Positions 33,809 to 49,605 of a stretch of DNA of 64,000 nt are shown piece by piece. Under the pieces are notes generated by a model. The model saw nothing but the letters and a program-made list of their open reading frames with translations. It was not told the origin of the DNA and did no database searches. The stretch is from Parabacteroides faecis. Its GTDB lineage: Bacteria; Bacteroidota; Bacteroidia; Bacteroidales; Tannerellaceae. Positions within the stretch are counted from its first letter, which is position 1, and every line of letters begins with the position of its first letter. The position numbers and the translations under genes are program-made. Location: assembly GCF_014647375.1 (NCBI RefSeq), contig NZ_BMPB01000006.1, forward strand, positions 186,001-250,000, written 5' to 3'.

Positions 33809-33816
33809 TACATTTG
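33809..33816 (+). promoter_or_regulatory. -7 promoter box of riboswitch 2
   Basis: TACATTTG, immediately followed by the aptamer start CCGCCGAATCGG. Same layout as the other riboswitches. Confidence 0.65.
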
Positions 33817-34120
33817 CCGCCGAATCGGTTCTGTATTATCTGGTCGGGTGATACAGATTAAAAGGGAATCGGGTGTAAATCCCGGACAGTCCCGCTGCTG
33901 TGAAGCTCCGTTCAACATTCTGAAAACAACTAATGCCACTGACGATTCAGTTGACAGTGGAAAGTTGACAGTAGACAGTTTTTCTGTCCGTATTTATCTG
34001 TCAACTGTCACATGTCAACTATCAACTTTCCGTCGGGAAGGCTTCAGGATGGGAGTCAGTCAGAAGACCTGCCATTCATTAAAGGCTCATGTCCTCGTGG
34101 GTTAGGATACGGGTTCGAAA
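33817..34120 (+). promoter_or_regulatory. cobalamin riboswitch 2 (carboxylase operon leader)
   Basis: Aptamer blocks GGGAATCGGGTGTAAATCCC, GTCCCGCTGCTGTGAAGC, GCCACTG, GGGAAGGC and AGTCAGAAGACCTGCC are in order. The hairpin TCCTCGTGGGTTAGGA near 34090 can kiss CCCGC upstream through GUGGG. It carries a TTGACAG-type insert. It leads into a 71-residue Cys-rich protein gene and the carboxylase genes, about 30 bases before ATG 34150. Confidence 0.92.
33948..34030 (+). repeat. TTGACAG/CTGTCAA hairpin insert in riboswitch 2
   Basis: Near-identical to the insert in riboswitch 1, at the same place in the variable stem. Confidence 0.85.
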
Positions 34121-34149
34121 AGATTGTTTATTTCAAAAATTATCAGATT

Positions 34150-34365
34150 ATGGAGAAAGATTGTCCGCGTTGTGGGGTCTCCTTTGTATGCCGGGTAGAC
34201 GATATCTCTGCCTGTCATTGTGCACCTGTGAAATTGGATGAGCTCCAGCTTGCTTATGTAAAGATGCATTATCCGGGATGCTTATGCAATTCCTGTTTGA
34301 ATGAGATAAAGAAATATTTCTATGCCTGCGAGGTGAATCCCCGCTATAAACATTTAAAGCATTGA
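34150..34365 (+). CDS. small Cys-rich (CWC-like) protein, first gene after riboswitch 2
   Basis: 71 residues. The N-terminus is MEKDCPRCG with a CxxC pair; a CHC follows near residue 24 and 'CLCNSC' near 45, eight cysteines in total, suggesting a bound metal such as zinc. It resembles the Cys-rich CWC family of unknown function. A paralogue lies at 38437 after riboswitch 3, sharing MEK-C-RCG and CLC-SC-...KxxFYA. The stop overlaps or abuts the next gene (ATG 34367). I take ATG 34150 rather than a longer frame that would run into the riboswitch. Function unknown. Confidence 0.75.
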   Translation: MEKDCPRCGVSFVCRVDDISACHCAPVKLDELQLAYVKMHYPGCLCNSCLNEIKKYFYACEVNPRYKHLKH

Positions 34366-34366
34366 T

Positions 34367-47568: not shown

Positions 47569-47939
47569 ACAATTCTTTTTCTCCTCGTCTAATTATTTTT
47601 CAACGCTGCAATATTACGAAAACAACCCGCCGGAAACCCGAAGATATTACTTTTTTGGCTTTTTTGCACTTAGTTAAACTTTAAACTAATTTGTGTTGTG
47701 TTTTGAAATGAACCAACCATTTTGAAATATGGAACAATTCGGAGTGGTAAAGGCCCTTCCTATTTGTCAATAATGGGTTATTTTAGGGCTGAATGCAAAG
47801 TGAAGGGGAAATCGTTGTAGTGTTTCCCTTTGTTAAAAAAACAGTTTATTATAATCGTTTCTATATTAATATATGTAAGAGGCTACCTCAAAATTGTATG
47901 GGGTAGCCTCTTATTTTTTATATTAGGAATAATAAATTT
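47569..47939. other. gene-free spacer between atpD and the ThrE-type exporter
   Basis: About 370 AT-rich bases without a coding signal. A 12-bp stem (TAAGAGGCTACC / GGTAGCCTCTTA, 47876-47913) lies just after the exporter stop and probably ends that transcript. Otherwise nothing recognised. Confidence 0.6.
47876..47913 (-). terminator. hairpin downstream of the ThrE-type exporter
   Basis: Perfect 12-bp stem with a 14-base loop, 27 bases after the exporter stop. The U tract is on the other strand, so termination on this strand is likely but not certain. Confidence 0.55.
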
Positions 47940-49274
47940 TTACCATTCAAGGAATTTTCCACGTTGCCGGCGTTTCTCCAATTCTTCTTGTAGATGTCGC
48001 TGCCGGTCCTTGGCTATATATTGACGGGCAAAGATATTAGGAACAGCAACACCTAGCGATATACAGAGAATGATAAGAGCGGAATTGATACCGTTGAAGA
48101 AAGCGTTCGTTACCTCACCGATCACTCCGTGCAGATTGATAAATGCCAATAAAGAGCGGTACATCAGGACACCCGGGATCATGGGGATAACTGACGGGAT
48201 CGTTAATACGTGATTAGGCACATGAAACCAGTGGACTGCTTTCACTGCGAGTACGCTGACAACGAAACTACCCATAAACGAACCGATCACAGGGCCGTAA
48301 CCCAGTTCGAAGTTTACAAAGTTGCGGGTACATACGGCAATGATACCTCCAACGGCAACAACCCATAACAGACGGCGCTGGATATTGAATATCATAGAGA
48401 ATCCGATAGCGGCAATAGCTGCAGCGATCGCATACACATAATACGGATCATGCGGAACCATACTTAACTCACTGAACTTATGGTCGATCGCAACGTCGTT
48501 CATGACAAGTATGCGCAATGCGAATGCAATACCGAACGTCATCGCGACTACCATCATAGCCGTGTTGGCAGCACGTGTCATCCCGACGAGCAGATGGTTA
48601 TCGAGCATATCGTCCACGAAGTTGATCAAAGGGACTCCCGGTACAATGAACAGGGCACAGGCGAGTAGCGGATGATAAGGCGTCTCGGACAATCCCGAGA
48701 AGGAAGAAAGATACGCAGTGCAGGTCGCGGCAAAAGCGGCGAGTGCTATACTCATATATACATTTAATCCGGCTTCTATGCATCGGGCACGTACCCTGAA
48801 ACCGATAAATGCGCAAATGGAAGCAAACAGAAAGGCGATCCAGTCGGAACCGAACAATTTACAGAAGCCGCCACAGGCGAATCCAGCACCGATAGCTACG
48901 ATATAAGGTGTATAATTCCGGGGCTTTTTGGCTATCTTTTCCAATTCCTCTTCATATTTGTCCAATGAATAGTCCTCTTCGATAGCACACCATGAAAGAT
49001 CGCTGATCTGCGAGATCGCAGTCATGTTGATACCATGTTTCTCACATTTCTGGAATTTGGAAAACGAGTTTCTTTCATCACTTACATTGACCATGATCAT
49101 GGTCCACCGGATATCGATGTGTAATTTCTCTTCCGGAATACCCATAAATGCTGCTACTCGTTTCATGTTCCGTTCAATACGGTTGGTATCGGCAGCACTT
49201 TCCATCAATAATTTGCCTGTACGCAGCAAAAGGTCCAGTTTACGTCGTAATAACAATACTTCCTTGTCTGTCAT
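47940..49274 (-). CDS. ThrE/YjjP-YjjB family exporter (fused)
   Basis: 444 residues. The N-terminal cytoplasmic DUF1212-type part ('LLLRTGKLLMESAADTNRIE') leads to 'GAGFACGGFCKLFGSDWIAF' and about ten membrane segments, ending in the DUF3815-type part ('IPSVIPMIPGVLMYRSLLAF', 'GVIGEVTNAFFNGINS'). It is thus a natural fusion of what E. coli encodes as YjjP plus YjjB. Known relatives export threonine/serine (ThrE) or succinate (YjjPB). A B12 riboswitch heads the gene, which makes a C4-dicarboxylate role attractive; substrate is inference. Confidence 0.85.
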   Translation of the reverse strand: MTDKEVLLLRRKLDLLLRTGKLLMESAADTNRIERNMKRVAAFMGIPEEKLHIDIRWTMIMVNVSDERNSFSKFQKCEKHGINMTAISQISDLSWCAIEEDYSLDKYEEELEKIAKKPRNYTPYIVAIGAGFACGGFCKLFGSDWIAFLFASICAFIGFRVRARCIEAGLNVYMSIALAAFAATCTAYLSSFSGLSETPYHPLLACALFIVPGVPLINFVDDMLDNHLLVGMTRAANTAMMVVAMTFGIAFALRILVMNDVAIDHKFSELSMVPHDPYYVYAIAAAIAAIGFSMIFNIQRRLLWVVAVGGIIAVCTRNFVNFELGYGPVIGSFMGSFVVSVLAVKAVHWFHVPNHVLTIPSVIPMIPGVLMYRSLLAFINLHGVIGEVTNAFFNGINSALIILCISLGVAVPNIFARQYIAKDRQRHLQEELEKRRQRGKFLEW

Positions 49275-49299
49275 CTTTTTGTTTAATTCTAAAATGTTA

Positions 49300-49597
49300 C
49301 ATCCTTATCCTAACCCACGAGGATATGAGTCCAAACGAACGGCAGGTCTTCTGACTGACTCCTATCCTAAAAGCCTTCCCGACGGAATAGTTGACAGTTG
49401 ACATGTGACAGTTGACAGATAAAATACGGACAGAAAAACTGTCATTTGTCAACTTTCCACTGTCAACTGAATCGTCAGTGGCAAAAGTAGTATTAGGCTG
49501 TTAACGGAGCTTCACAGCAGCGGGACTGTCCAGGATTTACACCCGGTTCCCTTTTAATCCGTATTCCCGAACGGGAGCTACGAAACCAATTCGGGCG
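49300..49597 (-). promoter_or_regulatory. cobalamin riboswitch 4 (ThrE-type exporter leader)
   Basis: Minus strand: GGGAACCGGGTGTAAATCC, GTCCCGCTGCTGTGAAGC, GCCACTG, GGGAAGGC, AGTCAGAAGACCTGCC, then the hairpin TCCTCGTGGGTTAGGA about 30 bases before the start region of the exporter. Carries the TTGACAG insert. Confidence 0.92.
49389..49469 (-). repeat. TTGACAG/CTGTCAA hairpin insert in riboswitch 4
   Basis: Near-identical to the inserts in riboswitches 1 and 2, at the same site between GCCACTG and GGGAAGGC. Confidence 0.85.
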
Positions 49598-49605
49598 CAA
49601 AGGTA
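49598..49605 (-). promoter_or_regulatory. -7 promoter box of riboswitch 4
   Basis: Minus strand TACCTTTG, directly before the aptamer. It lies back-to-back with the riboswitch 5 promoter about 100 bases away. Confidence 0.65.

Follow-up and report, generated by a model that had tools for sequence, protein, structure and literature searches.

Cobalamin riboswitches head genes for an acyl-CoA carboxylase and two transporters in Parabacteroides faecis and other Bacteroidales

Introduction

The succinate and propionate that Bacteroidales of the gut produce influence the host and nourish other microbes, and the supply of B12 (cobalamin) tilts the balance between these two acids, which is usually explained by a methylmalonyl-CoA mutase deprived of its cofactor. 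Genes placed under most riboswitches of the cobalamin class are repressed by B12. Here, we analyze a 64,000-nt stretch of the Parabacteroides faecis genome (assembly GCF_014647375.1, contig NZ_BMPB01000006.1, positions 186,001 to 250,000; hereafter the window), in which riboswitches of this class head the genes of an acyl-CoA carboxylase and of two transporters, one of the YidE/AspT type and one of the YjjPB/ThrE type. A preliminary description of this DNA had proposed that these riboswitches form a succinate/propionate switch, by which cells starved for B12 would export the succinate that they can no longer convert.

Several described systems resemble the window, each in part. With the cobalamin riboswitch regulons, most of which are repressed by B12 according to a passage of PMC11575231, it shares the aptamer family, the leader position, the TAnnTTTG start, and, in the genome as a whole, uptake and ribonucleotide reductase targets. 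It differs from them by its own targets, an acyl-CoA carboxylase and two transporters whose families contain succinate exporters. YjjPB of Escherichia coli, whose genes are annotated as a putative succinate exporter, has domains PF06738 and PF12821 in common with the window protein, whereas the latter is fused, is just 26-28% identical to E. coli YjjP/YjjB, and is under B12 riboswitch control. As for the AspT/AAEx family (SucE1, AspT, YbjL, and YidE), the Asp-Al_Ex and TrkA_C domains are shared and the YidE cutoff is passed, whereas, in a comparison with the AspT, YbjL, and YidE models, the window protein stays under the AspT and YbjL cutoffs. That both transporter families have a reported succinate exporter, SucE1 in the AspT family and YjjPB itself, is borne out by passages of PMC10717943 and PMC9527358. 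The window also shares AccC, biotin carboxyl carrier protein (BCCP), and carboxyltransferase (CT) subunits with propionyl-CoA and acetyl-CoA carboxylases (PccB, AccB), its CT having Ile where the propionyl-CoA carboxylase (PCC) of Methylorubrum extorquens has Asp. Finally, the CT is homologous to a subunit of the Na+-pumping methylmalonyl-CoA decarboxylase, the operon of which lies elsewhere in this genome (contig C17).

Results

The window contains five aptamers of Rfam family RF00174 (Table 1), all of which span model positions 1-189 and score above the gathering score of 31.5 bits used for the calls. Three of these had already been listed, and we confirm them; those before the BtuB-like receptor gene and the divergent TonB operon had been missed. 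The three listed aptamers do head the carboxylase, AspT-like, and YjjPB genes, but the claim that they directly precede them holds for YjjPB alone, where no open reading frame (ORF) separates gene from aptamer, while a small Cys-rich ORF intervenes at the carboxylase and at AspT. Since TAnnTTTG, which we take to be the Bacteroidetes -7 promoter element, opens each of the five aptamers, each probably has its own promoter. Moreover, on the 3' side of the AccC, AspT, and YjjPB aptamers, inspection by eye reveals a hairpin-like conserved stretch, CTCGTGGGTTAG, which most of the relatives inspected share with the window. The whole genome (6.66 Mb in 33 contigs) holds 13 cobalamin aptamers as called by Rfam, and from this density the chance that an aptamer starts on the same strand in the 900 nt ahead of a given gene is about 0.0009.

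Table 1. Coordinates of the features discussed, as positions in the window
Feature	Position	Strand	Evidence and remarks
TonB-dependent receptor, BtuB-like	27491..29731	-	PF00593/PF07715; TIGR01779 (TonB-B12) 125 bits, under cutoff 600
Cobalamin riboswitch before BtuB-like TonB receptor	29796..30086	-	RF00174 67.4 bits; 86 nt palindromic loop insert
Cobalamin riboswitch heading Cys-rich/carboxylase genes	33808..34090	+	RF00174 87.5 bits; 84 nt loop insert
Cys_rich_CWC small protein, 71 aa	34150..34365	+	PF14375 E=1.1e-10
AccC-type biotin carboxylase subunit	34367..35881	+	PF00289/PF02786/PF02785; NCBIfam
Biotin carboxyl carrier protein, EAMKM motif	35918..36439	+	PF00364
Carboxyltransferase (PccB/MmdA-like), Ile409 at acyl-CoA specificity position	36441..37973	+	PF01039; alignment to solved PCC beta chains
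Cobalamin riboswitch heading Cys-rich/AspT-like genes	38092..38375	+	RF00174 85.0 bits; 86 nt loop insert
Second Cys-rich small protein, 70 aa	38437..38649	+	ORF; relatives 53-80% identical before AspT
AspT/YidE-family transporter, frameshift-split ORFs 38652-38939 and 38936-40327	38652..40327	+	Asp-Al_Ex and TrkA_C domains; NF003007
Fused YjjP-YjjB/ThrE-family transporter, 444 aa	47940..49274	-	PF06738 236.6 bits; PF12821 105.5 bits
Cobalamin riboswitch heading YjjPB	49324..49606	-	RF00174 85.6 bits; 86 nt loop insert
Cobalamin riboswitch of TonB operon, divergent	49711..49914	+	RF00174 108.6 bits; without insert
TonB receptor, DUF5074 protein, periplasmic binding protein	49948..54502	+	Pfam

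The riboswitch linkage on which the proposed switch was built is conserved in related genomes for the carboxylase and for both transporters, in the genus and beyond it. We surveyed 39 Parabacteroides genomes, with orthologs defined by at least 81% identity for the CT, 85% for the AspT paralog, and 80% for YjjPB, as well as 295 Bacteroidales genomes. Aptamers in relatives were called by nhmmer using a profile of the genome's own 13 aptamers (E 1e-3 or 1e-2), with an Rfam recheck in 22 relative loci; counts for AccC, AspT, and YjjPB cover the rows with a returned locus plus regions fetched separately, and several YjjPB loci, like three core-YidE loci, have short upstream flanks. Within the genus, a riboswitch heads the carboxylase operon in all 10 genomes having a CT ortholog. 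The AspT paralog is riboswitch-headed in six genomes out of six, four times by its own aptamer (the window genome, G086, Parabacteroides massiliensis G066, and G049) and twice via a shared leader. In Parabacteroides gordonii (G063), it closes a riboswitch-CWC-AccC-BCCP-CT-AspT operon, and in Parabacteroides goldsteinii (G065) it follows riboswitch and CWC gene, nearly all of the carboxylase having been lost and AspT itself being broken. YjjPB, present in 26 genomes of the genus, is under an intact aptamer in nine of them, which lies directly upstream in five (the window genome, G075, G086, G060, and G059) and heads a riboswitch-AccC-BCCP-CT-YjjPB operon in the other four (Parabacteroides acidifaciens G014, G066, G049, and G067). 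A truncated aptamer, matching nhmmer profile positions 1-92 and scoring 38.9 bits with Rfam, precedes yjjPB in Parabacteroides distasonis NM39 (G061; L017 5899-6022), where B12 control has likely been lost. We also considered, and rejected, a generalization of riboswitch linkage to all AspT copies: of 32 rows for the core YidE paralog (72-78% identity), 25 loci were examined, three of them with short flanks, and none has an aptamer.

Among 80 named YjjPB loci, six are preceded within 900 nt by an aptamer on the same strand and two more lie inside a riboswitch-carboxylase operon; five of these eight belong to Parabacteroides genomes already counted, including the locus with the truncated aptamer. 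The three YjjPB aptamers outside the genus, in Rikenella microfusus, Millionella massiliensis (both checked to be Rikenellaceae), and Alistipes sp. dk3624, are found at 61% identity and score 94.8-109.1 bits with Rfam. As for the carboxylase, AccC rows of at least 71% identity in the 295 genomes have an aptamer upstream in 10 of 18 cases, which represent five family groups besides the window's own, and AccC loci at 62-66% identity have none in the order survey (0/13). Seven of the order-survey AccC aptamers were rechecked with Rfam, one of them, L327, scoring just 36.1 bits. In G343 (L338, family f61), a riboswitch-CWC-like-AccC-BCCP-CT-YjjPB operon encodes a YjjPB 86% identical to that of the window. 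AspT-like loci new in the order search have an aptamer directly upstream in 1 of 27 cases (G145, L343); such genes stand back to back with the riboswitch-carboxylase operon in G164 and G267, and directly before AccC, without an aptamer, in G236. A search of the open-licence literature found nothing joining cobalamin riboswitches to AspT-like or YjjPB transporters or to an AccC-BCCP-CT carboxylase; the riboswitch class described here is a familiar one, and its conserved targets are new.

Adjacent transporter genes were also seen at loci where no aptamer was found. In Prevotella illustrans (L093), they share a strand and are separated by about 80 nt; they are convergent in L087 and divergent in L026, a locus on the same contig as G082. 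These arrangements suggest a task shared by AspT/YidE-like proteins and YjjPB independently of B12. In G094, ThrE-like pieces come after an AspT-like gene.

The window has the genes for the biotin carboxylase, the biotinylated carrier, and the CT of an acyl-CoA carboxylase side by side (34367-37973), and this CT aligns over approximately 500 residues to solved PCC beta chains. At the position governing acyl-CoA specificity, the window CT has an Ile (Ile409), which it shares with the variants 6ybq and 8pn8 of M. extorquens PCC; 6ybp itself has the Asp expected of a strict PCC. By its numbering, this position is presumably D422/I420 of Streptomyces coelicolor. A passage of PMC7835884 states that the S. 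coelicolor residue shifts the preference between propionyl-CoA and a wider use including acetyl-CoA. The residue is a weak guide, since the solved PCCs 3n6r (Val) and 1vrg (Ile) also lack the Asp. The Ile is conserved in 10 of 10 Parabacteroides CT orthologs and at each of the 13 loci of the order in which the motif could be located, whether a riboswitch is present or absent, and thus marks the ortholog group rather than the regulation. A paralog in the same genome (C8:33980, ordered CT-AccC-BCCP) has Asp at this position, and Rfam found no aptamer near it in its scan of the whole genome. A PDB search with the Cys-rich protein returned one match only, a chance one.

The transporter gene at 38.7 kb had been assigned to the AspT family, and this stands at the level of an AspT/YidE family, but the protein is of the YidE type and its gene is split into two ORFs. 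The YidE model NF003007 (cutoff 449) is passed by the larger window ORF (618 bits) and by the intact P. massiliensis ortholog (740 bits), while the latter fails the AspT and YbjL models, with 232 bits for TIGR03802 (cutoff 547) and 180 bits for PRK04972 (cutoff 645). The two ORFs fall out of frame at an A/G run, and an intact ORF of 557-558 aa is present in two translated relatives. A programmed frameshift was envisaged because this run looks slippery, and rejected since the intact relatives inspected read straight through there, which makes an assembly error or a real frameshift likelier. The Cys-rich ORF that precedes this gene has no Pfam match at E<=0.1, its likeness to the other Cys-rich ORF being apparent by eye and by tblastn in relatives. 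The window YjjPB, 94% and 93% identical to the P. goldsteinii and P. gordonii proteins, respectively, does not reach the ThrE equivalog NF047720 (87.6 bits for a cutoff of 550), and a PDB search with it gave 0 matches.

The host genome encodes the methylmalonyl-CoA mutase that the propionate route needs, and so do all 39 genomes of the genus (partially in some drafts) and all six genomes of the riboswitch-YjjPB loci. In P. faecis, the mutase gene is on contig C9 with the closest aptamer 36 kb away, and contig C17, which holds the epimerase-mmdA-BCCP-OAD_beta operon, is aptamer-free. We therefore rejected riboswitch control of the mutase or of the mmdA operon in this genome, no aptamer being near either. 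In one genome (G250, L331), a riboswitch-AccC-BCCP-CT operon is divergent from the gene for the mutase small subunit, with one cytidylate-kinase-like ORF in between; found once in 295 genomes, this arrangement is not a pattern. A link between B12 lack and succinate is documented in Xylanibacter, which accumulates succinate when starved for B12, as a passage of PMC11575231 reports.

The window has further genes around its other two aptamers. The operon of the TonB receptor, DUF5074 protein, and periplasmic binding protein probably serves corrinoid uptake. Beside the BtuB-like receptor gene, genes for a CobN-type chelatase, an HmuY-like protein, and MotA/ExbB-type and DUF2149 proteins (20855-27449) probably handle tetrapyrrole or corrinoid. 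Four of the five window aptamers carry, in the same loop, an inserted hairpin-forming repeat of 84-86 nt made of GTTGACAGT units, which belongs to a dispersed family matched 62 times in the genome when both strands of each site are counted. In G086, loop inserts are found in the BtuB and YjjPB aptamers, and the AccC and AspT aptamers have short loops. Two other aptamers of the P. faecis genome (L006, C2:85570-85778; L007, C7:360108-360325) head ribonucleotide reductase genes (NRDD; Ribonuc_red_lgN/lgC), and in the Rikenella yjjPB locus (L089) a second aptamer stands before a ribonucleotide reductase gene. Near the riboswitch-carboxylase operon of L334, there are two matches to the FopS family of small RNAs (4325-4391 and 4934-5000).

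Discussion

The aptamers, the gene order, the operons, and their conservation are read directly from the genomes, and they indicate that B12 shortage probably turns on the carboxylase and both transporters together in some gut Bacteroidales. The three riboswitches would put the carboxylase, the YidE/AspT-type and YjjPB/ThrE-type transporters, and the Cys-rich proteins under one signal, the off-with-B12 direction being the one expected from the riboswitch class. With corrinoid bound, the leaders would be closed. Once B12 is gone, methylmalonyl-CoA mutase, which is not itself riboswitch-linked, would stall, succinate would build up, and the leaders would open. The transporters then made would export the dicarboxylate that can no longer be converted to propionate, most likely succinate, and the carboxylase made in the same state would yield a dicarboxylyl-CoA, methylmalonyl-CoA or malonyl-CoA, independently of B12. 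Substrates, direction of transport, and the role of the carboxylase are what we infer here, and we give such a B12-off module for a stalled mutase, exporting succinate or a related dicarboxylate, a probability of roughly 0.45. The main argument for succinate is that two unrelated families stand under one signal and that succinate is, to our knowledge, the one substrate reported for both. Caution is warranted above all because of the carboxylase, which yields a malonyl-type CoA; the operons would be equally consistent with methylmalonate or malonate as the exported acid.

The succinate/propionate switch of the preliminary description therefore survives in part: conserved B12-riboswitch control of transporters and carboxylase, and the operons that they have in common, speak for it, but a number of observations weigh against it. 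The AspT-like protein is of the functionally uncharacterized YidE type and lies far under the AspT and YbjL models; in its relatives, identity is 42-44% with E. coli YidE and 29% with YbjL. Its gene is broken in the window assembly and, differently, in P. goldsteinii, where the carboxylase is deleted too. The window YjjPB has low identity to the E. coli proteins, and riboswitch control of YjjPB is far from general, with no riboswitch at 16 of 26 orthologs in the genus (three loci, in G073, G064, and G077, being cut short upstream) and none seen at 72 of the 80 named loci, several of which have short upstream flanks. Likewise, the other 8 of 18 AccC rows of at least 71% identity have no aptamer in the flank read, and the mutase gene and the mmdA operon of P. 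faecis are both aptamer-free. In X. ruminicola, as far as passages of PMC11575231 state, none of four aptamers is near propionate genes, and propionate genes are mostly unchanged by B12. Moreover, the preference for acetyl-CoA or the broad specificity suggested by Ile409 has no use in succinate export, and the carboxylase itself, the part of the module that is most constant, is neither required for succinate export nor explained by it alone.

It is this last point that invites another reading of the same B12-off module, in which the exported compound is the product of the carboxylase. Propionyl-CoA or acetyl-CoA would be carboxylated and the freed acid, methylmalonate or malonate, exported while the mutase is idle. 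The carboxylase is indeed the member most constantly headed by a riboswitch (10/10 in the genus, 10/18 in the order), its operons include both transporters, and one copy is divergent from a mutase gene. We nevertheless consider this unlikely, since it would waste ATP and riboswitch-headed YjjPB also occurs without a carboxylase ortholog (G075, G060, and G059, with best CT rows of 60-62%); no thioesterase is found among the labelled neighbours, most neighbouring ORFs having lacked annotation.

Two other readings strike us as distinctly improbable. In one, the transporters carry amino acids (aspartate/alanine, threonine/serine, or glutamate) and answer B12 lack via methionine synthase or one-carbon metabolism. 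The founding members AspT and ThrE do carry amino acids, but the cutoffs of both models are missed by a wide measure, even by an intact relative in the case of AspT, and the operons common to the transporters and an acyl-CoA carboxylase are left unexplained. In the other, the carboxylase replaces the mutase, without needing B12, as the normal supplier of methylmalonyl-CoA, much as MetE replaces MetH, and the transporters are secondary passengers that come and go along with its leader. Repression of such substitutes by B12 is a known pattern, riboswitches also head ribonucleotide reductase genes of this genome, and riboswitch linkage is wider for the carboxylase than for the transporters. However, these bacteria are not known to us to need methylmalonyl-CoA when the mutase is absent, several genomes have separate aptamers for YjjPB and AspT, and Ile409 suggests acetyl-CoA use. 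That riboswitch copies merely multiplied by duplication inside a cluster of B12 genes and ended up ahead of unrelated genes without metabolic logic, as the very similar riboswitch bodies and loop inserts of the window and the varying order and presence among species might suggest, is highly improbable since riboswitches head genes of these three classes in other families as well, and in other neighbourhoods.

Returning to a B12-off module that exports succinate or a related dicarboxylate, a broader proposal can be made, which we regard as doubtful: Bacteroidales may possess a modular and mobile B12-off regulon, consisting of an acyl-CoA carboxylase and two unrelated dicarboxylate exporters, the pieces of which are gained and lost singly. 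Through the expression of these genes, and beyond the idling of the mutase, B12 would set the release of succinate versus propionate. If the conserved riboswitch module is true, exporter expression would be a second control point, and the module would name candidate succinate exporters for Bacteroidales, while the orphan carboxylase gains a condition in which to seek its role.

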